This document shows, piece after piece, positions 25,001-61,129 of a stretch of DNA of 64,000 nucleotides; the first letter of the stretch is position 1; every line of letters begins with the position of its first letter. Position numbers and translations under genes: made by a program. The stretch is taken from contig NC_058337.1 in the NCBI RefSeq assembly GCF_905475395.1, positions 30,032,983-30,096,982 on the forward strand, written 5' to 3'. The stretch is from Chrysoperla carnea. Its lineage: Eukaryota > Arthropoda > Insecta > Neuroptera > Chrysopidae. The notes under the pieces are model-generated. The model worked only from the letters and a program-made list of their open reading frames with translations. It was not told the DNA's origin and did not search any database.

Positions 25001-28000
25001 TATAAACACTCATTTTTCTCACTTGTTCCATCATGGTGTGAATTTTTAATTCGCATTTGGTTTTTATTTTATCACCATGCACTCAGAAATAATTTTCGAA
25101 AATTCAAATTTTTTAGAAATATTTTCAAAATTAAATGATTTATAATCGTATTTTCTAGGGCAATTATTAAAAATATAATGAAACGTTTGAAATATCTTTT
25201 AAACGTTTATAGTAATCTCATAAACAAAAGATGCCATTTTTGTAGATCAGTTAATTTTCCTCAAAATGTGTATTACCCATTTTATGAGTTTCATTAATTA
25301 GCGAAATATAAAATTAAGAAGAAAAATTTTTTCTGTCTCCTTTTCTAGAGCGTTTAACTTTCTACAAAAATATGTGCTGAGATTTGCTGTAAGTTCAATA
25401 AATGGCAGGATATGCTTTTTTTCAAAATGGATTGAAATAAAAATGAAAACTTTGATGGAGAGGACCTTTCTATTATTATTAATATCTCATATTTGTATAT
25501 ATAAATTTTCTAGGTGCATAGCAATCATTTTCGGTATCGAAAGCAAAAGAAAATATATTCGAATGTTTTGACTAACCCAGGTATATGATTAATTCTTATG
25601 ACTCCTAGAGCATTGATTTCTTACCTGAGAAATCAAATATACAAGGGATGACACTATTACTAGGTGTTGCGTAAATAGTATCATAATTGTCTCCCAGTGA
25701 TGAATAAGAGTAATATCGATGAATAAGAGTGCTAATTAATAAAACCGAATCATTTTAAAATTTATGCTAAAGAAATAAAATAATTGTATTTTAATCACTA
25801 CTACCCCCCCCCACCCTCTTTGGTCGAATCCTTTAAATAACATTAGTAAACACAGATAAATAAAACCTTGACAATACCCCAATAATTCTCACAATTAACT
25901 CGTAATTATCTCATCTCAAAGACATGGCCGTCAAAATTTGTAATCTAATGATCTAATGAAAATCATAATTAAATGTTGTTGTTTTTTTTTTATATAATGA
26001 AATAAATACCTTGAACAACGTGTTGACTAAAATCTATTAATCAATTAATTCGTCAACCGAGTCCAATCAATATTAGTGTTATAAGTTAGAATTTGCAACC
26101 AGTTGAATACAATATATACATTCACCTCAAGGTTACCTTTAAAATGTCTACTACCTAATTTTAAATATATAAATAAAATAAAATTTGTATTGATTTTATT
26201 AAGAAAGGCGTGTGGAGAAAAGTAGTTCAAGAGCTTAGGTTCGAAATATGTTTTCAAATCCACTTGGAGACAATGGATTTTAGATACGCCAGTAGATTTT
26301 TGCATTTTTAATAAGCTGGAAGAATTTTGAGGTTTAAACTCCTTAAAAAGAAAAACCAATTACCTTGGTCAAATAAAAATAATAAACTGAATCTTTCAGA
26401 AATATTGGATCCGAATTGAATAGTCACAGATACTTAATTTCCCATTTCTACACATGTTGGCACTGCAGGCAGAATAATTCCTTCGTGTGCAGCTCTAACT
26501 GATCCTGTACTCTTATTCAAAATGAAAGAAACTCAACTTATATTAAACACATATTGCCTATTTAAAAGGAAAGCAAATATTAACTAACCGGTAATAATAA
26601 TGAGCAAATTTTAATAAACTAATATAGTGGCAAATTTCTGTCCTTTGCTCTTAGTCTAAAATATATTTTGTATTATAAAATATATGAAAAATTATGGATG
26701 TTAAGATTTACTATGATATAAATATTAAATAGCTGAATATTGTCTCATAATTCACTTTAAGCTGTCATGAACCTAAATTATACTTATAATTCTGCTTTCA
26801 CTCGTGTCATTTCACTATGGAAAACTACGAAAATAATTTTTCAATTCTGGAGGGGGGGATGTTCCATTTGGCTACGAGAAGCGAGTCGTTGTTCGATCAA
26901 ACAAAATTTACTCAAATAAAATCAATATTTTACATTGAAATATTTTGGTTTAAAAATATTTATAAAAAAGAAAACTTGACTATTGGCACAATCAAAACTT
27001 CAACACAAGGAAAACAAAAAATTTACTGGACCACTATGGAAGAAGCAACTTTTTTTTAAAAAAGTAGAAAAAGGTAAAAAATTAAGTCCATCTTGTTTAG
27101 AACTGACGTCCCATATTGGGGACACGTATTAATATCTATATAACGAAAATTATCGAAGAGAGGAGTTTTATCATTTTACATAAAATATTTAAAGTATAAA
27201 TCTGTTCATAATTTAAGCTCTTATTAAAAATTAGCAACAGAAGAAGTTTATTTAAGTTAACCTACGTTATTTTACTTTTATATAGACTTTTGGGCAAACG
27301 TAAAATTTATAATTTGAAAATTTGTAATTAGGGTTCAGTTTAAGTTTTGAACAGGTTCAATTTAAATTTTGAACTGATATTGACACTTATTCCCGGTCTG
27401 AGATGGCTATTCTAAAAACGAGGAGCATTATCATTACATTTTTGTACCTTTCTACAAAAAAAATTTTTGTTTCAAAATGCTCAGAGATTGCTCACCACAT
27501 TTTTCGAGAAATTTCAAAGCCCATATAATTTATTTGAGGATCACCTAATTCACCTAGTAACGCTTTAAGAAACGATAAAGATAATATATTTGATGAATTT
27601 AGAACTTTTAGAAAAACTAAGCAAATTTAAATAATCAAATAATATAATGTATAACTACCTAAATTCCATTTTAACCCAGTTGTAGAAATATTTTCAGTTC
27701 GCCCACATAGTGGTATTAAACTCGTCCAATAACCACGAAGTTTTTCTGGTATTTCAATTATGTGTTTTATGTTAGCTTTTAATAGCCATGCTATTGAATT
27801 ATGTGCCAATAAAAATACGGGAATATTTCCTAAGATATTTTCAACTTTATGTAACGTATTTACATTTCCAAAAATATGATCAATTCTACCACAACTCTCC
27901 GCAACTACTAAGACTCCATCAATAGTTAAATTTCCTTTACTAATTATTTTACTTATTTCTAGTAAACTTTTTGTAAAATCAGTTTCATTTTGATCAGGCG

Positions 28001-28624
28001 TACTTAACATTCTATCTTTTGATATTAAATTTTGTTCGATAAATGTGCGCGTTTCAGCACGAATAGAATCAAAATCGCCTGTTACATAATCAGGTATAGG
28101 TGGTTTATCTTTTATAAAATAGGCATGTTGTTTTGCCCAATTAAGCCATCGATCTGTTCCACCATCAACTGTAACACGCAATTGTGCTAAAACGAAATAA
28201 GTAAATTTTTAGCATATATACACGCAATTATGAAAATATCAATGAACTCCATTTACCTTTTTCCCATAGTTGTTTTAAATAATTTTCATTTAATAGTATA
28301 GGTGTATTTAATATTACAATTGCATATCTGAATGTATCAGAAATTTCCAAAATATTTGTTGGTTTCCATTCTTTATTGCCATTACAATTATTTGTGCCAT
28401 TTTGTTTCATTATCTAAAATAAAAGAAACTATACATTAACATTACATTAATTGTTGATTTTATTAAAATTTCACATGATTTAATTTTAAGGTTTAAAATT
28501 TGAAATTTTGTACGAAGAATATTCAGTGCCATCTTTTATTGCATTTCCTAACTAAAATGTAAAGTAACCAATAATACCATCCAAAACAGTATTGATTAAT
28601 TTAACTTACTTCCATACATTCCAT
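19046..28624 (-). CDS. TPK1: Thiamin pyrophosphokinase, complete three- or four-exon gene
   Basis: Transfers pyrophosphate from ATP to thiamine, giving thiamine diphosphate in the cytosol. Coding exons (minus): 28257-28410, 27659-28186, 19046-19167; all junctions are GT-AG and in phase. From the ATG at 28410 the product is 267 residues; vertebrate TPK1 is about 243. Visible motifs: VDGGTDRW (58-65), GDFDSI (88-93), STPDQNETDF (113-122), CGRIDH (151-155), TTGLKWNL (220-227), and in the last exon FGSLVSTSNSY and LLWAM, the family C-terminus. The GG usually preceding GRxDH is ES-C here. A splice acceptor at 28414-28415 lies just before the ATG, and a good donor after 28610 would add an in-frame leader (ATG at 28622-28624, giving MECMEI), so the true start may be 28624. 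The last intron is 8.5 kb and contains two foldbacks. The neighbouring M1 gene lies upstream on the same strand; no functional link is implied. Confidence 0.95.
19514..20006. repeat. Foldback element in the TPK1 intron
   Basis: Arms about 19514-19600 and 19905-20006 pair through blocks such as AACGGTAAGAG and TTGATCCTCATAAAA. Internal blocks, including GAAACATTTTTTCG at 19629, also have inverted partners. Non-coding. Confidence 0.7.
20659..21202. repeat. Foldback element in the TPK1 intron, arms ~150 bp
   Basis: Left arm from 20659 (TTAGTCTAG, TTCAAATTGGTGAAAT, AATGATGTCTAGA) and right arm ending about 21202 are reverse complements with moderate divergence. The loop is about 200 bp and AT-rich. 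Confidence 0.75.
21203..27658. other. TPK1 large intron, remaining part
   Basis: 6.4 kb with no recognised gene. A C-rich tract lies near 25804-25815. A short in-phase terminal-exon-like segment on the minus strand at 26434-26513 is discussed in the findings. No transposon boundary was identified. Confidence 0.4.
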
Positions 28625-31227: not shown

Positions 31228-31233
31228 TTTTAT
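31228..31233 (-). terminator. Poly(A) signal overlapping the stop codon
   Basis: On the minus strand the last codons of the inactive M1 gene read CGT AAA TAA AAT, so an AATAAA hexamer (31228-31233) contains the TAA stop. If it is used, the 3' untranslated region would be only about 10-30 nt. Confidence 0.5.
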
Positions 31234-34200
31234 TTACGTAAAAATTTAACTTTTTCTTCAGAATTTTGTTGTTCTAAATAATTATCAACCCATTTTTCGA
31301 TAACTGGCAAATTCTCATCACTCCATTTAGTCTCCTCTTTTATATTTCTTAATGCTTTTTCAATAATGTATTCAGCTGTACCAAATTCACCCTGTCGTTG
31401 CACATATAATTCCGATACCATATCAAGACCTTCTTGTGTTGTAAACACATTCGTGGCTGATGTTATAATACTGTCCCATAAATGTGGTTTGTTTTCAAAT
31501 CGTACTTTTATTATCTCCCAGTTATTTTTCAAAAAGTGGAATAATGTTGTATATCCACTAGCACCACCGGTCAACATACTAAATATCAAATATATGTCGG
31601 TCTCTGTGAAATTTCCGTTATCTTCTAATATTGTAATGTTTAAAATACGATCAATTTTCCACGATTCTATTGGACATCCAACCAATGTTTTCAATAAATA
31701 TGTTCGTTCACTTTGCTTACGCGATGGGGGGAAATTTATCACACGTTGTAAACCAAATTCCCATTCTTCACGTGTCCCCCACTTGAATACTGGACATATA
31801 AATTGATTTGCCACTCTAAAATTACAAAAAAATTCAATAAATAACCTTTTTCCCAGAAGCAGTAAATATTTTATGCTCAGTGCATCTCTTCAACTTTCTA
31901 GCGGAAGTACAATGATTTGTTGGCGAGATTATGTGAAAGTAAAATCATTCCAAATTTCTCAGGTATTCATGCATCTCTGTAGGCTCCTCAAGGGGAGTTA
32001 ACATTTTGGTAAAGAAATTAAATAGGTTTTGACAGGTGAATTCTACACAAGAGGCCAGCAAAAGACAATGATCCAGCAAAACCAGCCTTAAATTCTCTCT
32101 ACGCTGGGTTATCAAAATTTATAGCAGCAGAATAATAAGATATGCACTTTCTAGAAGAACTGAGAAATGTTAATTCTGCCATAAAGAAAAAAGAAATCAA
32201 AATCGATTTTGGATAGAGAAAATTGGACATAACTTACTACGTCAAACATAGATATTATCAACGATCGCTGGAAAGACATATAATCTCACCAACTGCATGA
32301 GGAATTTGAAATCGTTAAAAAAGCACAATACAACTTTCAAAACGCAGTACCGAACATTATTAGCCAAATTTTTCTACTGCAATGTTGTTATATCTTATTT
32401 AACAAAACTTACGGATTTCCTTCATCTGGATCCTCACTTTCCATCCATTTTTTGTAAACGGCCTGAGCTTCTTCAATGCAAGGTTTATAGCCAGCTCGAC
32501 ATAAGAACACTTTAGCCAAACCACGCAAATGTGTTTGACTTCGATCTTCGTCAGGTTTTGGTTCACTTCCTAACTCTTCGTACAATGGCGTTAAAAGCAT
32601 TCGGACATATGTCTCAAATTTCTTATGAACCTCAGAACTATCAATATGACGGCCAATGTGGTCAATCATTGTAAACACTGGATCCCAAGCCAGATGATCT
32701 CGTTCATATTTCAAAAATAGTGTCATATTTAAAGCTGTAGCAAAACTCAAATCACCAGCATATGCTAAGTTCCAAGCATCATGTAATAATTTTGCTCTAG
32801 TATAAACTGGAATTCGTGATCGACCTTCTTGATTATTTAATAGATATTGTGCCAACATGTTCCAATTTTGAATATCGTAATTTACTGGGAATGGTCCTGA
32901 AATTTATAAACTTATCATTAAATATTCCTAAACTATTTTGAAAAAAATGCATACCAATTTCTTCAGGATTTACAATAATAAACTGATTTTCTTTTGGTAA
33001 ATCTTTAATTTCAATTTCACGTTCTTTTTTCATCCAGACACGAGGAGTGTAGTTATGAAAGTCTAATTTTTCTTCATCCACTAACACGATTGGAATCCAC
33101 CATAACATTTTATCTTGATCGGGGACATCATGTGGACGATCTCGCAAATAAACTCTCTAATGGGAAAAATAATGTTAATGAAAATTGAAAAATAAATATT
33201 CGAGAATGATTACCTGTTTAAGTACGGCAGAATTTTTTTTATAATCCCTAGTTACAGTTACAACTGGTAATCGATCTTTTGTAATCCATGATCCTGCAAT
33301 TTCGTTAACGCTAACTTGCCGGCATAGTACACGATTCGTATGTGCCTGTTCAGTTAATGCACTCCAAATATCATCCCCAAAGAATGTCTTGTATTCCCTA
33401 GAAATTAAAAAAAGTAATTAAAAGTAGTTATAAGATTGATTCAAATTCCCTATAATTAACTTACTTTTCACGAATAAATTTGCGTAAAGCTTGGCGGAAA
33501 GTTGTTTCACCAAGTGTATAGTTAAACATACGGAAAATTAATTCAGTTTTGGATGCAGTTGTCTCATATTTCATTCCTGTGATACGGGCATGTGGGTATC
33601 TTTTGCTGAATTCGTAATATAAAGAATATAGGATTGTCATTGGCCATTTCCCTTGTAACTCAGCGCCATTATCAATCTGAAAGAAATTTCTCAGTTTTGA
33701 AAATAGCTCAAAAATAAATAAGTTACGATTCAACTAGTAATACCTTGAAAGCAGTCCATGCAGCCATATAACTTGCTAAAGCCTTATTAATATGGGCATC
33801 ACTCCACCAGTATGGTGTAGCTAAGGCCCCTAACCATTGATAAGTGATTTCTTGAGCAATTTGCCAAACTCCTGTTCGACTTAATTCACTTTCCCTAGAA
33901 GCATAACAAAATGGATAATGGTTCCCAAAAATATTTTTATTGAAAGTTGATTTCTTACTTGAAAAATATTAACCCCCAATTGTCAGCAGGACGTACAGCA
34001 TAATAATTGGGTAACGCAACAATATCTAATTTTTTCAATGGAAAATCTAATCCCCAGTATGATTGTAGCTCTTTAACAACACGTCGAGTTCGATTTGGAA
34101 CATCCTTAAGTGGTTCTAAATAGTCACGCCGTCCATAAATCTTTACATTAACTCCATTGTCTACAGCACCGCTTTCTATGTTATGTAATTCACCAATTAC

Positions 34201-36901
34201 AAAACCAAGAGTGAATGTAGACATTGGAGGGGTAGTTTGGAAAGTATCCCAAACCCATCCTTCACGATTTTCCCTGGAAATATTGTATTTAGTTAAATTT
34301 AATATCAAGAAAACCATTATTTTGAAACTTACATATCAGTAGTTTTAGATAAAGGCATGTTTGATAGTGCCATCATACTTTTAGGTCTGGCAAGTTTCAA
34401 TTCGAATGGTGTTTTAAATGATGGTTCATCGAAGCATGGAAATACTCGACGAGCATTATTTGGTCGCATGTGTGTTGCTACAAACCATTTGCATTCATTA
34501 CTCGTTTTGTCTGCAAAACTTGTTCGAAATACGCCTTCACTAGTTTCATTCGACAATTGGCCAGAAAATGATAATTGTAATTGACAATCTGTGCCTTTTT
34601 CAACACTTTTCTCTAAATGCAAAACATACAATGGTTTTTTGGGTATACGTTCAGTACGTACAATACGAACATTTTCCGTTTTTAATTTGGGTTCACTGTA
34701 AATTAATAGAAATAAAAATATTAAAAAACATTTTATATAGATAATCACATTTTTAGATATAATATATTTATTCATCTTCATACAATAAAATCTACCATCA
34801 GCATCTGTAGTATGAATCTACTCTTGGTGAATTAATTTGTTGCTACATCTCATTTATAAAGCAGTATTAGTGTCATAAGAACCTATATTTGGAATAACTG
34901 AGAGGCTTCTCAAGAATTTCAAAGTTTCTTAGTCCATACAACAAAAAAATATGTAATATGGACGTAAAACTTGAGTGAAGAGAGTAGCAGGAAAAAAGGT
35001 ACCTATCTGGTCCAAATCTAGCCCTCGGGCATTGCGTACTTTGTACCGCGCATCAGGCGATCTTTCTTCTGTTTTCGATTATTATTAGTCTTATATTTTC
35101 TATTATTATTAGAAAAGATAAAATGAAATAATTTATTATACATATACACCACACAAACAAAATCACAGGAAAGACAGCTTGATGCGTAGTACAAATTACG
35201 CAATGACCGATGAATATCAACGCGAAGATAGGCCATTTTACCATAACAAAAGTCTTAAAATTCCCCCATTATACTACGGTAGAGAGAATTATTGGATTGT
35301 TCTTGCGCAGATAGATGACTACTCTATGCTACTTTTATTATTGTACTTAATGATATTCCCAACCAGATCTTGCCATCTTGCTTGTAATTTTTTTTTTTTT
35401 TTTAAATAAACTAAATGTATAACTAAGTAAACATTACAATCTAAACAAGAATTTGGAAAATATCGATATTTAAACTGATCGTTATATTGGCGCAGATTGT
35501 TGTGACTTGATAGAAAACGGTTTGGATTGGCAGTTTGTTTATTTACTTGCAGATGACATCACAAGCAAGTAGTGTATTCCTCATAATACAAGTTCATGCG
35601 TTAAGGTTCTAGCGTCAAATTTGATCACATGATACCCTAGAGGAGAGTGGGCAAAATTTGAATGGAACAACGTGATTCCTTGCAAAATCGTCCAACGAAG
35701 CGGGCGGGTAGCCGCTAGTAATTATTAAAATTTTACACATTGCCACTATACCTATTTTAATTAACCTACTTGTTTTCAACAGAATAGATACTCAACATTG
35801 CAACCGCTTGTGTTACTTGTAAATCCTGATGTACATGTAATTTAATTTCATCACTTGGTTCCAGCCATGTTACATTAATCCAAACAACACCATTAAATTT
35901 ACCCTCTTCTGGTTCGGCTGTAAATTCTAGTTTATATGCTGTGGGAATTACCGCTTTATCTAAGCGAGCATCAGATATCAACATGTGCGCTGCATTTAAA
36001 TCTATGCTACGACGGTTTCGTTGTTGCATCAAAGCACTCGCATTTATCTAAATACATACAGAAAATTATATTAAAAAATGTATCGCGACTAAATGTCGAA
36101 AAATATCATATTCAATGATATTCTACCACAAAAATATCCCCCGATAGTAAGTATGAGAAAATAGAGAACTTGCATTAACTTTTTTTTACCACAAATTCAT
36201 ATATAAATGAAAGATTGATTCATCTAAAGTGTATTTTAGTAATTTTTTTTAAAATTAGTAATTCCATTTAGTTACTAATTATTAATAAAAAAGAGTTATA
36301 TTTTTGAATTAAAAACGTATTTACACCCGCGGAGGCTGTGAGCCAATCGGAATCACGCTAAATTTACATTTTTCAGTTTGTTTCTATGGAAAATTCATTT
36401 AATTAGACAAAGCATTTTCCACATTGCATGTTATTTTATCATTTCTCCGTGCGATGGCGTTGCTAAAAGGATGTATTGACGCCACTGGCGTTTGAATTTA
36501 TAGTTTAGAAAAACTATTTTCAATTGTAAAATTACATGAAAAATCAATTTAAAAAAATTTTTCTTAGTAGTTTATAGTAAACTTCCGAAAAAAACAAATT
36601 AAAAAACATGCAACTTCTCTATTCTAAACAACTGTATTCAATTTACCTTGGTTGAGTTATCTAGAATTCACCTTTTTTCGCATATCATGACTGTTGATTG
36701 AGTAAAACGAAGTACTCAGACATTAAGAGAGGATATTTTTGTATAAGGATATTATTGAACAGAATATTTTTCGATAGAATGTTTAATCGTAAATCCAAAA
36801 AAATAAATAAAAAGAAATGTAAGGTATTTTAGAAAAATTACCTGATGATATCCAATACATGCTAATATTAATATCGCAATCGTTGTGGATTGCCACGACA
36901 T
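31230..36901 (-). CDS. Secreted M1 aminopeptidase-like protein lacking the zinc site
   Basis: Ten exons (minus): 36842-36901, 35770-36047, 34333-34695, 33959-34273, 33744-33894, 33465-33676, 33214-33397, 32955-33156, 32413-32896, 31230-31815. All are GT-AG and in phase, giving 944 residues without internal stops. Residues 1-20 are a signal peptide (WQSTTIAILILACIGY); there is no C-terminal hydrophobic tail for a GPI anchor, so it is probably secreted. M1 landmarks are present: RRVFPCFDEPSFKTPF, STFTLGFVIGEL, DNWGLI, WW-D, NYDIQNW, and a full C-terminal helical domain. Catalytic residues are lost: GAMEN is RPADN (328-332), HExxH is QEITY (353-357), the third zinc ligand Glu is Lys376, and the catalytic Tyr aligns with Ala430; only Glu354 remains. 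Intact exons suggest a retained non-enzymatic role such as binding or decoy; the role is inference. Its catalytic relative lies divergently at 53 kb. Confidence 0.93.
35650..35718 (+). mobile_element. Helitron-like 3' end inside intron 2
   Basis: The sequence GCGGGCGGGTAGCCGCTAG ends at 35718 and is followed by T. A GC-rich hairpin directly before CTAG is the usual Helitron 3' terminus. The 5' end within intron 2 (34696-35769) was not located. Confidence 0.5.
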
Positions 36902-53237: not shown

Positions 53238-56200
53238 ATGCCGCCGTTAGCGCGTGCAGAGTTTGAAATTGATAGTGCAAATTATCGTAGCAGTGATAAT
53301 GATACACATTTACGAATATCGCGAGATGGTGGATTTTTTGTGTCTTACGTAAAAGCATGCCTTTTTGCAATTATAATTATTGCATGTTTAATGGCTGTTG
53401 GATTGTTAACATACTACTTATCACCTGGTTATAGATTTTTAAGTAGAACTGAAGTAAGTTTAACATAATTTTATCTATGCATGCATCCTTCGTAATAAAG
53501 GTTTCATGATATTACAGTGTGTATGATTTCAAGGAGGTTCGGTCCTCAATTTCTTGATATAAATATAATTTAAAATTTTCCATATCTAACCAAATAAATC
53601 AATAAATAAACAAATTCCTTTTCTCTGAAGAAGGTTATAATGAGAAATAAATCAATTCAACATTGAAAAATCTCCCAGACTTGCACTTAAAAGATCTAAC
53701 ATAAAAAAATTAAAATTCAATAAATTTGTTAAAAGTTATTCCAATTTAAAAGTGATGGGTATATTTATGAACCACCATATGGTATACTCTCATCATATTA
53801 AGTGAAATTTACTGAAATTTTGGAGGCAGCATACCACCTGTAACAAGCCTTAGCTTTTTACTTACAAGTGAAATTTACAAAATTTAAAAAACCCTCAACA
53901 AATTTTCGGGTATGGAACCCTAAACTCACACTTGAAACATATCTAAGAACACTCTCCATTAAATTACCTTTCAAACGAAACCAAAAAAATCAAAATCGAT
54001 TCATCCGTTTAGGCACTTCGATGTCACAGACAGACACACACACACATAGCGGTCAAACTTATGAAATACCCCTTTTTTTAGTTCGGGGGTTAAAGAATAA
54101 AAATTTTCATATGCACGGAAAAAAAAAAGTGATTTCAAAAAATCAACGATTTTCCACTTTTTTTTACAGTTTACTCAAAAAATATACATTTTAGAGAGAA
54201 AATTAATATTTCCAAAGTTTTTGGGCGTAAAATTTTCGATCGAAATGTATATAATTTTTTCTTATCGTTCACATTTCCGGAAAAATCGATATTTAAATAA
54301 TATTTTCCGCATTTTTCCGCAGATTTTTAGCATTTATTTGAAAACTATGCATTTTAAAATCATCCCAGTTAAAAGTTATACTGTTTTATATTTAATTATT
54401 TGTATATATATAATTTTCACCACTAGACGGAAGAAAATAAACATAATTGTATGAACTGAATTTATATTAGGTTTTCGGTAGTACATACTATATTGCAATA
54501 AATAATTAAAAATAATAAATAATTTTATTATTGGTGTATGACTACAAGTTTTATTATATTTTCTCAAAACTTTTCGTTCATTCCCAAGATATACAATTGA
54601 ATTGAATTTTATCTCTTGAAAAATATAATACACCAATAATAAAATTACTTTATTATTTTTAACTATTTATTGTTATATAGTATGTACTACCGAAAACCTA
54701 ATATAAATTCAATTCATACAATATGCTTATTTTCTTCCGCCTAGTGGTGAAAATTATATAATCGTATATATGACTTGTAGGATAATATATTATAAAAACA
54801 TTAATACAGTATTTATACAAACATAAGTATGTATGGCTCGTATATATTTATTTGAACATCGATTTTTTCGAAAAAGCGAAAAATTGGGAACAATCAAGAT
54901 AAAATGCACAGTTTTAAGAAATATAAAGCCCAAAAACATGGAAAATTGTGGTTTTGATGTTTCAGAAAATATGAAAGATAAGATTAAAAAAAGTTTATGG
55001 ATGGACAAATCAATCGGAAATTTTACGTATAACTTTGAACTTATCTATTTCTTCTCTAAAATGTATAGTTTTCAACAAAATTGCAAAAGAATTCTAAAAA
55101 AACGTGGAAAATCGTTGATTTCTCGAAATTACCCTTTTCATTCTTCTGCCCATATGAAAATTTTTATTCTATATATAAAAAGTTAAAACTTGACATAGGT
55201 GGTATTTCTGATCTCCAAAGCTTTAGTAAATATCATATTAGGTACATTTTATATAATTTTATGAGAGGAGTAGTATAGGGAAAAAAATTTGTTGCTGATT
55301 AAACATTTTACTTTTCTTTTTATTTTAGGCAGCAATTGAAGAAGACGTAGATTTAGCCATATTAGATTTGGATTCACATCATTCATCACAAAATGAAAAA
55401 TTATACAGATTATCAAATAAAATAATTCCACAACATTATCGATTAAAATTTCATCCGATTTTTGATGAAGATCCAGATAATAAATTTACATTTACCGGTG
55501 ATGTAAAAATTACAATTTTAGTAAACGATTCCAACATCAATACTATTGAGTTTCATTCACAAGGTTTAGATATCAAACAGGACGGTGTTAAAGTTGCTAT
55601 GCTTATACGACAATCAGCACCATTAACGCCCATTTCACAAATAAAAGCTGAAAATAATACTACCAATGAAACTGATTTTATATTTGAGAATACTCGCATT
55701 GGGAATGATACTAAAACAGAAAACAATGAAATTGCAACAGAAACAATAACACCAGAAAATGATTCAATAGTTGAAAATAATTCGTCAAGACAAGTGACAA
55801 ATGAGAACAAAGAATTTGATTTAATATTTGCTTCGTCGACAAATATTAAAATTGTAAAACAAGAATATCAAAATGAATCTCAAAAATATATTCTACATTT
55901 GGAAACTGCGTTAAAAAAAGGCCGAAATTATACAATTTTTATACCTTTCAGTGGAGAGTTTGGTGAAACATTAGAAGGTTTTTATCGTGTTACATTACAA
56001 GATGAAGAGGGGAACACAAAGTAAGTGTTGTTTGATTTATTAGCGCATTTCTGAGAACAATAACTGTTCTTATAACGTCCCAAATGAACTAAAGTTTGAA
56101 TTTTCTAAATTATTAAATATATAATAATATATGCTACGATATTAAATCATGGTGGAAGCGACAAGAAAAATATTATAAATGGTGGAGGCATTTGGAAATA

Positions 56201-59200
56201 CTGTTTATCTAATATCTTAAATCTTAAAAATAAATTTGAGTAAAATATATTTCTTTAAAGCATACCACTCAATTTTACTTAACGGAAAATGCAAGCTCTT
56301 GCGTATTTCCAAATTTCATTTTGACGCCAAAACTTTACAAAATATCTTTTACTTCAAATTTTTTACAAAAATTCATAACACTAGCAATTACTGGACTTTG
56401 TTTACCCTGTTATGCCGAAATATCTTTAATTCTTCAACTAAATGTCGAACTTTTTCTTTGATGTCTCAAATCTATACACATAAAAAGCTTTGTCCCGAAT
56501 GACCGACTGACGGATCAACACACAGCTTAAACCGGTTATCTTAGAGACTGGAAACTAGGAGGGCGTTTTCTTTGCATGACGTAGGCATTCGATAAGAAAC
56601 TCTACGTCTAAGGGGGTAAAAAACGAGGGTAAAATTTGTTTGGGACAACATCCCTGGTGGAAAAATATAAGAAACCCTGAAAAAGTCTTAGGAACTCTAA
56701 ATAACTCTGAATTTCTCAACGCTTTTGTACTGTCTAATTCAGAGTCATTAGACAGTCCAAAACGTTGAGAAAGTCAGAGTTATTCAGGGTTCTTAAGACT
56801 TTTTAAGAGTTTCTAAGACTTTTCAGAGTTTCTAAGACTTAATAAGACTTATTCTTTCATCGAATATTTTTTCCACCAGGTATGATTCCTTCAAATTCAA
56901 GGGTCCAATCTACTTCAAATTTGGTATAAAGATTCTTTAACAAATTGATTGAAATATTTACATATAAACTGCTATAGTTTCTTATTAAAGTTCTTAATTG
57001 TTTGTGACATAAAGTTTGTCCATATAACTAAATCGGCACCATATGGAAAAAAATTTTTATTACTTTTTTATGAAGAAAAGTTAATCTTGATAAAAAGAAC
57101 TGCGTGGTCTAGAACGCAACATGTAATAATCAGATGTCAATTTTTTGCATTCGTATACGATATTTCTCAAAAAGTTAAAATTTTGCTCAAGAGTAAAGTA
57201 CCTTTAGTTTTTACAATATCGACAATATATTTATTGAGAGAAGTTGATTCTAATTGAAAACTACGGTCAGATAACCTACGTCATCCATATACCATGAAAA
57301 AACAGATTTCGTTATTTTTCTCTGTAATAGCATTGATTATTTATGTCTACTCGAAGTTTAATCTAGGATGTACTGAAATATTTTTGTATCTATATACCGG
57401 TATACCTTTAAATTATCAAAGCGAATACAGAAAGTTATTTACTAAATATAACAAAATCTATTTTTTCATGATAACATTGAATAAATAATAATAGATAATA
57501 TTGGATATCTGACCGTAGTTTCCAATTAGGATCAACTTTTATAAAAAAATTTTATCGAAAGTAACAAAATAAAAGCATTTAACTCTTTCTCGTAATACGA
57601 ATGCAAAAACTTGATATCTGATTATTTCATATTTCTAGGCCATGCAAGACCTTTTATCAAGAATAACTCTTTTTCATAAAACAAATAATTAAAAAAGTTT
57701 TCCATATGGAGGAATTAATTGGCCAAACTGCATTAAAGAATTAGATGACGAAGCCTAATACGAATATTCTAAAATTCACTCATTAACGCGTCGCAGTTAC
57801 TTTCTTTTCTAATAAAACTATGTTGAAAGCGTAGAGAAGAATAAATCATGAAAAGGTCAGGTTCCAGTCTTTTTTCCATTCTTCAAAAAATTTTAATAAA
57901 TTTTCTCTCAATTTTAATTAACCGATACGAATAATAGTTTATATTAATTATTGCGAATTTCTTACGAAGTGTTTGTTTACAATCTGATAATTAATATTAA
58001 ACAAATTTTTTATTGAATTCAAGGTTTCACATTCATATTTTTTTTTTAATGTTTTAATTAGATATTATGCAGTTACTCAATTCGAACCAACATTTGCTCG
58101 TACTGCATTTCCATGTTTTGATGAGCCAAAATTTAAGAGTACATTTGATATAAGTATTGGTCGACGTGAAGATATGGTATCATTATCAAATACTGATAAG
58201 AAAGCACAGGAACCAATGTAAGTAATTCATGTAATGAGCTGTTGCTACATTAGACTGAGACATATTGATGCACTTTTTCGCTATATTTTATTTTATTAAG
58301 TTCTATTGAATCTTTTAAATAGGCTCACTTTTACACACTCAGATTCTATTTTTAAGTTTCAATCCGTAACAGAGATAATAGGATCAAAATTGTAGGCCAA
58401 AAATGGAATGAGTAAGGCTATCAGATTCTAGATTTGTAAAACAAAATGTTACAAAAGGAAACAAACTCAGCATTCTATCTGATGATTAGGTGACATTTCG
58501 AGTACTTATAGGTTCAAGATTCCAATGTAAGAGTATCCTTGAATCGTGCTACGCACTCGTTGTGCAAATTTCGCAGACGTACATTAATAATGCTGTTATC
58601 CCACTAGTATCGTAAATAACTATTTCCATACGAGTGCAGCTTTATGCCGCCTACTAAGAGACAAAAAGGTACTAATTCAACAATTCGTAGACACTCATAT
58701 TCGTTAAATTGATCTTTTTTGCGATAGCGAATCTTTTAACGCCTTTATTTTGTCACACAGTGGAAAAAATAAGTTCAGTCCAACAAAAGTCCAAGTGATA
58801 TTCGTATATGAAATAACTAATTATAAATTTACATTTTACTAGGACTGATAAACCAACATACATTTGGGATCATTATGAAACAACTCCGGTAATGTCTACA
58901 TATTTAGTGGCATTTGCTGTTGGAGACTTTTTAAGTCACAATTTCACATCAAAATCAAAACAAGGTGTAATAATTACAGTATCGGCCGAGCGAAGTATTT
59001 TACCAAAAGAGAAAACATTTATAGAATATATTGCGGCACCTATTTTTGATTATTACATGGATTTATTTCAAGCTGATTATCCATTCAAGAAATTGGATAT
59101 CCTTATGTGTTCAATAGCTGGTGGAGGAATGGAAAATTGGGGTTTGATAACATTAAGGTAAATTACTCTGTGTGTTTTTAAACTGTGTGAATTCTAGAAT

Positions 59201-61129
59201 ATATACAAGCGAGATTATTAGATGCCAAATGTGAAATATTCACATATTATCTAATTCTTACTGCGGAAACTAATCAGTTCAGTGCAAAATTGTTTTAATA
59301 AAAAGCTTTTGGAAAAAATGATAATATGTGAAATAAAACAACTAAAAGTTGTTCTACTCGGAGGAGAGCATGTCATAAATTTAAGGTCTTAAATGTATAG
59401 TTGATAACCGATAAGAGATAGAAAAAGTTTCAATTAAAATGTTATTCTGTATAATATAAACAACTTTTGTTGGAAACTTTTTTTCGTCAACCTCGTAATT
59501 TCAGCGTAAGTCGATTGCAAAAATTTATCGACACTAGTTTTTTCATTCAATTACTACGAAAACTAATCAACTTTCAAATAAATTTTCCCAACAAAGTTTT
59601 TCTCTATCTCTGATTATTTTCAAAAATTGACCAACACACTATATCATATAAATGCAGACATACACAATTTCCTTTCGATTTGCGCTGTATTTATTAGATT
59701 TACGAAAAAAAGAGGTTATTTTATAAAGAAAAACTTTCTAATTTAAAGTTTCCTTGAATCTCCTATCAGTTCAGAGTATGAGTTGATTTTTAAATGACCT
59801 TAAAAGTCAAGGTCAAATTTATGACTTCTAAGGGGTGTTGTCTCCAAGTAGAACAACTTTCAATTGGAGCATTTTTTCCAAAAACCATTCGTTCGTTGAA
59901 GAAATTTTTAGCTGGGTTGTTTAAAATGAGACACCTCATATCAGGCCCGTGCGCAGGAATGATCCAAGGGGATGTTCAAACTTTGGTTCATCATTTTAGG
60001 TCATAAAGTCAATAAAAACTAGCAACTCTTTTTTCTAGTAAGAAAACATTTTATTATTTCAAAATGTGATATTCAGTTGCTATTTTCAAGTTAATTTTGC
60101 GAGATACAGAAAAAAAACTTTTCCCTAAACGCCAGAAAAAGAAGCATTCGGTAGACATTTGGAAACGCATCTTCATTGCAAATATATCGAGTGCTTTGAG
60201 TGAATTTTTGACGTCTCGCCCAGTTTCGTTGACCCAGATGTCAAGGGAATCATCGTACAAACTTGAAGAGCGTGGATCAAAACTTGTTGGATGTAACTTG
60301 CTGGGAAAGAGACATGAATTTGATAAAATATTGAGTTGGATTCAAAAATCGATCCTGTAATTGGGTCAAAATCAAATCGATGTACGGTATGTAGATTGTG
60401 GCCCGGAAATTATCTTCAGTTGAATCATTCTGTACATTCGAACGTTGACATTGTCGCGGGTCTTGGGTTCCACCATTCCCTATTGTATTCATCGCAGATT
60501 TTGAAAACGGTTTTGAAAATTTTTCTGAACTCTTCTTCAGCATTTCTTCTACTTTCAAACAAAATCTATTTCGCTGCATCGTTCAGCTCGATAGCCTTGC
60601 TAAGATTTTGGTTTCATTTTGAAGTACTCGACTCAAAGAGAAAAATATGCATGGATATTTTTAACAGCTAATCAGTGGAAATGCGTTTCATAAATGGCGT
60701 CATTAACAGAGCAAATTTATGTAAAGAGAACCTCAAAAGCCTCCCAAGCGCACGGGCTTGCCTGGTATAATACGACAACTAATGGAATAGTTCGTATCTT
60801 AACAATAGAAGGTAATAACATACGCATTTTTCTTTGGATTCATCCACCTATTATTCAGATACATTTGGGACTATCATGAGTTAGGGATGTACCCACAGTT
60901 TCAAACTGGATATCTAAATTTATTTACCGATATTTATATATTTAGCGATGACTTCTTAGTTGTCAATGATAGTTCTACCAATCAAAAAGTATTGGAACCA
61001 ATATTTACAGTGGTTTCACATGAAATTGTCCACCAATGGATTGGAAATTTAGTTTCAATAAAATGGTGGGCTGATGCTTGGCTAAAAGAAGGCTTAGCTT
61101 CATACTTCGAAATGTATGCTATGCAGGAA
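53238..61129 (+). CDS. Type II membrane M1 zinc aminopeptidase, 5' part (521 residues)
   Basis: A cell-surface metallopeptidase that should remove N-terminal residues from extracellular peptides. Exons (plus): 53203-53453 (ATG at 53238), 55329-56020, 58062-58217, 58843-59157, 60946-61129; junctions are GT-AG and in phase. An in-frame TAA four codons before the ATG fixes the start, and an acceptor at 53201-53202 implies an upstream leader exon. Residues 1-38 are cytosolic, about 39-62 a membrane anchor (ACLFAIIIIACLMAVGLLTY), and the rest extracellular. Motifs: FARTAFPCFDEP, GGMEN (449-453, for GAMEN), HEIVHQW (485-491) and Glu508, correctly spaced 18 residues after the second His. Residues about 167-240 are an unusual Asn/Thr/Glu-rich insertion with about seven N-glycosylation sequons. 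The remaining 400 or so residues, including the catalytic Tyr, are not found before the window end. It resembles aminopeptidase N, glutamyl aminopeptidase or TRHDE; specificity cannot be assigned. Confidence 0.93.
54395..54775. repeat. Foldback element in aminopeptidase intron 1, arms ~150 bp
   Basis: Left arm about 54395-54542 and right arm about 54629-54775 pair through ATAATTTTCACCACTAGACG, TTTATATTAGGTTTTCGGTA and AATAATTTTATTATTGGTGT. The loop is about 85 bp. The ends look like terminal inverted repeats of a MITE. Confidence 0.85.
56646..56887. repeat. Foldback element in aminopeptidase intron 2
   Basis: The ends are CATCCCTGGTGGAAAAATAT and its diverged reverse complement; inner pairing runs to TCTAAT/ATTAGA. 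The right arm has gained tandem AGTTTCTAAGACTTTTCAG units, making the arms unequal. Confidence 0.75.
57008..57733. repeat. Large foldback element in aminopeptidase intron 2, arms ~250 bp
   Basis: Left arm about 57008-57275 and right arm 57503-57733 pair from CCATATGGAAAA inwards; the innermost GAAAACTACGGTCAGATA pairs perfectly with TATCTGACCGTAGTTT. The loop of about 230 bp contains a 64-codon open frame (57294-57488, plus) with a hydrophobic N-terminus but no recognised family; it is probably chance. Confidence 0.8.
58218..58842. other. Aminopeptidase intron 3
   Basis: 625-nt intron with nothing recognised in it. Confidence 0.6.
59158..60945. other. Aminopeptidase intron 4
   Basis: 1.8 kb intron. 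The 3' part is occupied by the antisense hAT-like fragment. Around 59460 a CAACTTTTGTTGGAAAC core resembles the shared motif of the R1 family. Confidence 0.6.
59935..60640 (-). mobile_element. hAT-like transposase fragment, copy 3
   Basis: The minus frame at 60277-60579 contains EDNFRATIYIPYIDLILTQL then QDRFLNP, the best-preserved version of the hAT-type segment also seen in copies 1 and 2. After a frameshift the next frame (60054-60260) continues with DDSLDIWVNE. It sits in aminopeptidase intron 4 in antisense. Frameshifts show it is not active. Confidence 0.6.

Follow-up and report, generated by a model that had tools for sequence, protein, structure and literature searches.

What becomes of an enzyme's gene after its active site has gone is the question raised by a locus of the neuropteran Chrysoperla carnea. 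It lies in a 64,000-nucleotide stretch of contig NC_058337.1 (NCBI RefSeq assembly GCF_905475395.1, positions 30,032,983 to 30,096,982, forward strand; hereafter the window), where a reading frame of 944 residues without a stop runs along the minus strand (36901..31230) through ten exons, all introns being of the GT-AG type. A first reading of the letters alone (the sequence-only reading) had described ten exons joining in phase to 944 residues, a structure that was borne out by these introns and by the lack of a stop, and had called the gene intact but catalytically dead. The analysis reported here suggests that this gene, hereafter the window gene, probably arose long ago as a tandem copy of a gene for a secreted aminopeptidase N (APN), with a site that is now dead and a product that has been retained as a folded extracellular glycoprotein.

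An M1 fold that has lost its catalytic site

By its sequence domains, the window protein has the fold of peptidase family M1 and is nearest to APN. The Pfam domains M1_N, M1 catalytic and ERAP1_C were recognised at 129.4, 65.3 and 213 bits (cut-offs 25.8, 27.7 and 38.2, respectively), the last being the highest-scoring part and also the longest profile. APN chains are the closest solved structures (best E 9.3e-82), and the best-matching of these are, to judge by their entry codes, presumably mammalian. In an active M1 neighbour within the same window the N-terminal and catalytic domains scored 146 and 195 bits, versus 129 and 65 in the window gene. An NCBIfam search returned only two matches, both far under the curated cut-offs.

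Active-site residues were compared in a 19-row alignment that set the window protein beside 14 active-type paralogue models, a further active M1 gene that is more distant, two dead paralogues and TAF2; the segments at 29.623 and 29.712 Mb, which cover no part of the site, do not figure in the site table. HExxH and the zinc Glu are present in all 15 active rows, while the catalytic Tyr is not visible in three short ones (29.638, 29.658 and 29.827 Mb) and can be seen in the window neighbour only in the better of its models. In the window protein the GAMEN exopeptidase motif is replaced by RPADN (328-332), and the HExxH-x18-E zinc site is absent, with QEITY supplying Q353 and Y357 for the zinc His and K376 standing for the zinc Glu; A430 occupies the position of the catalytic Tyr. 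Among ten conserved site positions the only survivors are N332 and E354, the general-base Glu of HExxH. The sequence-only reading had called the same residues, and its calls held against the 14 active-type models; its statement that every residue needed for catalysis is replaced stands for eight of the ten positions and was slightly too strong in that E354 is kept.

Changes extend beyond the motifs themselves. The stretch from GAMEN to HExxH is shorter by 11 residues, in frame, than in the paralogue at 29.878 Mb, and residue 188 is a His where seven of the nine active rows with a letter there carry Gln, which we take to be a substrate-pocket residue. The GAMEN Glu, this pocket Gln and the stretch before HExxH are presumably the elements that hold the substrate N-terminus. 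W333, G334, W359 and G361, family-conserved residues adjoining the site, are kept. On its residues, the window protein is an M1 nonpeptidase homologue, i.e., a protein with M1 homology that lacks the catalytic residues.

A probably secreted duplicate and its possible partners

The window gene forms part of an M1 gene cluster at C1:29.62-30.10 Mb of the 559-Mb genome. At least 140 matches to PF00379, the cuticle chitin-binding family that marks arthropods, occur in this genome, against none in 14 prokaryotic control genomes. Six introns of the window gene fall between residues 182 and 700, and for each of them one or more active paralogues have an intron at the same site and in the same phase; these shared sites and phases mark the gene as an old DNA duplicate of an active M1 gene and not a retrocopy. 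No close copy was found among the 49 genome matches listed; over compared columns, no paralogue model is more than 32.5% identical, the nearest paralogues being 32% identical on that basis and the 29.878 Mb model 34% when realigned alone.

Nine N-glycosylation sequons occur in the protein, the first of them at residue 22, within or beside the signal region, and RNRR at 30-33 resembles what we take to be a proprotein-convertase site. The four cysteines of domain IV (Cys721, 728, 757 and 797) all align with cysteines of APN chains. A hydrophobic C-terminal anchor signal of the glycosylphosphatidylinositol (GPI) type was not found in the modelled end, which is hydrophilic (best 15-residue mean -0.55), an alternative 3' exon being possible. 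We infer a secreted, glycosylated and soluble protein because of its hydrophobic start, its sequons, the lack of a hydrophobic tail and the aligned domain IV cysteines. Loss of the anchor was considered as a special feature and dropped, as the model of the active 29.878 Mb paralogue also ends without one.

Under the explanation that we favour, the gene of a secreted insect APN was duplicated in tandem long ago, and one copy lost zinc binding and catalysis but was kept for its folded extracellular glycoprotein. In the cleft, the zinc ligands and the putative holders of the N-terminus have gone (Asp stands for the GAMEN Glu and His for the pocket Gln, and the stretch before HExxH is shortened), whereas the outer domains persist. 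The protein would be expressed, secreted without an anchor and act by binding through these outer domains, either pairing with active M1 paralogues or competing in soluble form for their ligands. Partnership, trapping and binding in the old cleft are sub-modes of this explanation, and our confidences in them overlap.

As a partner subunit, the protein would use domain IV to pair with a secreted M1 paralogue that is active, and would regulate or stabilise that paralogue, a role that we advance tentatively and by analogy. Mammalian APN dimerises through domain IV, which in the window protein has both the top Pfam score (with the proviso on profile length given above) and the full set of aligned cysteines; furthermore, the genome provides 14 active-type paralogue models, and that at 29.878 Mb is likewise anchor-free at its end. 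Conservation of domain IV alone, however, would equally keep a monomer folded.

A soluble trap or decoy for binders of active APNs, such as lectins, peptides of the gut or, as happens in moths and mosquitoes, Cry toxins, is an analogy about which we are somewhat doubtful. It would be consistent with the signal-like start, the absence of an anchor and the nine sequons. The excerpted passages of PMC13127027 describe insect APNs as receptors for Cry toxins, viruses and lectins, and those of PMC11266112 describe Gone early, a dead Drosophila protein of family M13 with all key active-site positions substituted, which is proposed perhaps to trap EGF ligands.

Constraint or decay

A further explanation is that the window gene is a pseudogene kept intact by luck, in which constraint is over and stops have yet to arrive. 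Conservation was scored in 96 columns, each conserved to at least 85% across six or more active paralogues. Ten of these columns constitute the site (328-332, 353, 354, 357, 376 and 430). The window gene keeps two of ten site positions and 53 of the 85 others at which it has a residue (62%; Fisher one-sided p 0.013), while leave-one-out controls on the 14 active paralogues keep 8/10 to 9/9 site positions and 80-100% elsewhere, with fewer columns for short models. In these columns loss is concentrated in the site, yet the whole protein is faster-evolving than its active relatives.

Conservation was also compared per domain, with borders set by the analyst. When two active paralogues are set side by side, it is highest in the catalytic domain (115/219); in the window gene this domain falls to 61/190, the level of the remainder. 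Domains III and IVa of the window gene, at 24/85 and 44/149, compare with 27/79 and 59/148 between the two active genes, and ordinary family conservation thus appears to be kept outside the catalytic domain, these two domains being near the active-pair level.

Neutral decay was simulated in 200 runs starting from the gene's own coding sequence, with approximately 10% indels and with the ten site codons watched. When three, four and eight of the ten had changed, the median number of stops was 20, 26.5 and 47.5, respectively; at none of these three end points was any of the 200 runs stop-free, the minimum at eight changes being 20 stops, and by three changes the median number of indels had reached 38. 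The window gene has zero stops or frameshifts, and this stop-free frame speaks against long neutral drift.

Other points weigh against the favoured explanation. The 62% of positions kept outside the site is below the value of any of the 14 active controls, and the terminal branch of the window gene measures 1.44 and 1.86 in two trees, in which the medians are 0.63 and 0.70. Moreover, an already dead gene with another function that was only recently released from constraint may look alike. Faster evolution throughout and a long branch are what a pseudogene would show, but even the loss of three site positions is accompanied in the simulation by the stops and indels given above, the shortening before HExxH is in frame, and a stop-free GT-AG model spans all ten exons. 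We consider a pseudogene unlikely. A comparison of nonsynonymous and synonymous rates (dN/dS) between the window gene and a paralogue was dropped, as its synonymous sites are near the shuffled level (synonymous difference, pS, 0.668 versus 0.691). The claim of the sequence-only reading that selection has acted on an intact dead gene is upheld in part: the frame is intact, the site is lost and simulated neutral loss was never stop-free, while the rest of the protein also shows raised divergence; the roles that it named (decoy for a gut or immune ligand, partner of an active paralogue) would be candidates. Overall, constraint without catalysis is supported.

Peptide binding in the old cleft, as in the yeast M1 protein Tma108, seems rather improbable as an analogy. 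The conserved residues W333, G334, W359 and G361 beside the site would suit such a function, but D331 and H188 are changed, the stretch before HExxH is shortened, and Tma108 is stated in the excerpted passages of PMC11266112 to keep all active-site residues but one. Protein-protein binding via the outer domains is, we think, likelier than peptide capture in the cleft, because the elements holding the N-terminus are lost while domain IV and the N-terminal domain still resemble those of the family.

A sequencing or assembly error hiding an active enzyme, for which no supporting point was found, can practically be dismissed, given that eight of ten site positions differ and an in-frame shortening occurs in an otherwise flawless frame.

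Other dead M1 genes and TAF2 in the same genome

About 0.2 Mb away lies a pair of M1 genes that are also dead (C1:29849151-29855891 and C1:29866001-29871104), with 381 and 384 residues modelled and no stop over the modelled part. In this pair GVGS stands for AMEN, the general-base Glu is a Lys, HExxH is broken, the catalytic Tyr is lost and the zinc Glu is kept. The pair thus shares with the window gene the genome, the cluster and the loss of GAMEN, HExxH and catalytic Tyr, whereas it keeps the zinc Glu and has exchanged the general-base Glu for Lys, a pattern that is reversed in the window gene. The intron sets also differ, the pair having an intron at query residue 433 that is absent from the window gene and lacking the one at 390. 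Pfam catalytic-domain scores of the pair (97 and 87 bits) are above that of the window gene (65) and below that of the active neighbour (195).

The pair was used for dN/dS because comparisons of the window gene with paralogues are near synonymous saturation. Its members are 47% identical to each other, with dN 0.45 and dS 1.1 (rough values, dS being near saturation); pS is 0.577 against a shuffled 0.673, and the nonsynonymous difference (pN) is 0.338 against a shuffled 0.710. These values suggest that the pair has been constrained since a shared loss of the site.

The window gene and the pair group together in 64% of bootstrap trees with site columns and in only 2% when site columns are masked (with fewer rows), and an approximately unbiased (AU) test does not reject a single clade of dead genes (p 0.27). 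A single clade was therefore considered and not settled upon, as these values decide for neither single nor repeated loss. The opposite patterns of residue loss and the different intron sets would suit a repeated origin: conceivably, though we would not rely on it, secreted pseudo-aminopeptidases have arisen more than once from the insect M1 cluster (the window gene and the 29.85-29.87 Mb pair), as a non-enzymatic layer that would regulate active paralogues or buffer their ligands.

TAF2 shares with the window protein an M1 fold without a zinc site, but is a TFIID subunit encoded in this genome by a separate gene (C3:61117401-61118600; E 1.4e-94 to TFIID subunit 2). It is absent from the 60 of 88 solved-structure matches listed for the window protein. 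Identity of the window gene with TAF2 was rejected, as the best Protein Data Bank matches are to APN and TAF2 is found separately.

As a separate observation, single GAMEN substitutions (GAMDN and GAMET) occur in the otherwise active-looking M1 genes C6:32617830-32621231 and C1:2224901-2227000.

Relation to known systems

Active insect APNs, represented by the 14 models, resemble the window gene in domains, intron positions and fold, and differ from it in the eight lost site positions, the stretch before HExxH and the anchor tail, which the 29.878 Mb model also lacks. Among dead homologues, three transcript clusters from the Lucilia sericata transcriptome are listed as 'Family M1 nonpeptidase homologues' (MEROPS M01.UNW; PMC4826915, Table 5). 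Like the window gene they are M1 family members classed without peptidase function, and they are transcribed; the likeness is one of class description, the excerpted passages giving no sequence or motif. The FlyBase pseudoenzyme group contains 180 pseudopeptidase genes in D. melanogaster, according to the part of PMC12869072 cited here. In the portion of the inactive-metallopeptidase review drawn upon (PMC11266112), yeast Tma108 is the one M1 pseudopeptidase listed in Table 1; it has a proposed non-enzymatic role, as does the window protein, but acts on nascent chains at the ribosome. The partner role suggested above would follow the manner of the alpha subunit of mitochondrial processing peptidase, which is inactive (same source).

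In a literature search, mostly by title, neither this protein nor any named insect M1 protein with such a site turned up. Dead M1 homologues are already known from a fly, whereas this particular gene looks new. If an insect secretes an M1 protein that has lost the site and kept the shell, it would show cleanly what the APN fold can do when it no longer catalyses; furthermore, a soluble dead paralogue could compete with a membrane receptor, which bears on APNs as toxin receptors. A non-enzymatic binding role of the window gene is put forward as a lead.

Gene model and neighbouring features

Candidate transcripts were assembled by trying donors and acceptors within ~14 bases of boundaries read by eye. 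Eight were stop-free (938-947 residues), and the 944-residue version, whose stop codon ends at 31230, was chosen for its plainest splice sites. A purpose-written spliced aligner reproduced the exons from protein and DNA, which checks the aligner only. Of the nine introns, six measure 57-67 bases, and GC content is 0.36 in coding sequence versus 0.19-0.33 in introns.

Table 1. Exons of the window gene (window positions; residue numbers of the 944-residue model)
Feature	Position	Strand	Content
Exon 1	36842..36901	-	Start codon; residues 1-20, a hydrophobic stretch resembling a signal peptide; whole-protein hydropathy maximum at residues 7-21
Exon 2	35770..36047	-	Residues 21-112; RNRR at 30-33; M1 N-terminal domain begins
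Exon 3	34333..34695	-	M1 N-terminal domain; His at residue 188, which is Gln in most active paralogues
Exon 4	33959..34273	-	Catalytic domain begins; RPADN (328-332) replaces GAMEN
Exon 5	33744..33894	-	QEITY (353-357) replaces HExxH; K376 replaces zinc Glu; in-frame 11-residue shortening before HExxH versus the 29.878 Mb paralogue
Exon 6	33465..33676	-	A430 replaces catalytic Tyr
Exon 7	33214..33397	-	Catalytic domain ends, domain III begins (borders approximate)
Exon 8	32955..33156	-	Domain III (borders approximate)
Exon 9	32413..32896	-	Domain IV (ERAP1_C-like); Cys721, Cys728
Exon 10	31230..31815	-	Remaining domain IV; Cys757, Cys797; stop; without hydrophobic GPI-type tail

Rfam and tRNA scans of the 64-kb window gave no matches. 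The active-type M1 neighbour, with GGMEN and HEIVH, is located at 55362-61129 on the plus strand, opposite to the window gene, and runs past the window end; for an active gene its tree branch is long (1.43 and 1.49 in the two trees). The sole non-M1 gene recognised in the seven open frames scanned is represented by a thiamin pyrophosphokinase exon at 27630-28208 on the minus strand.

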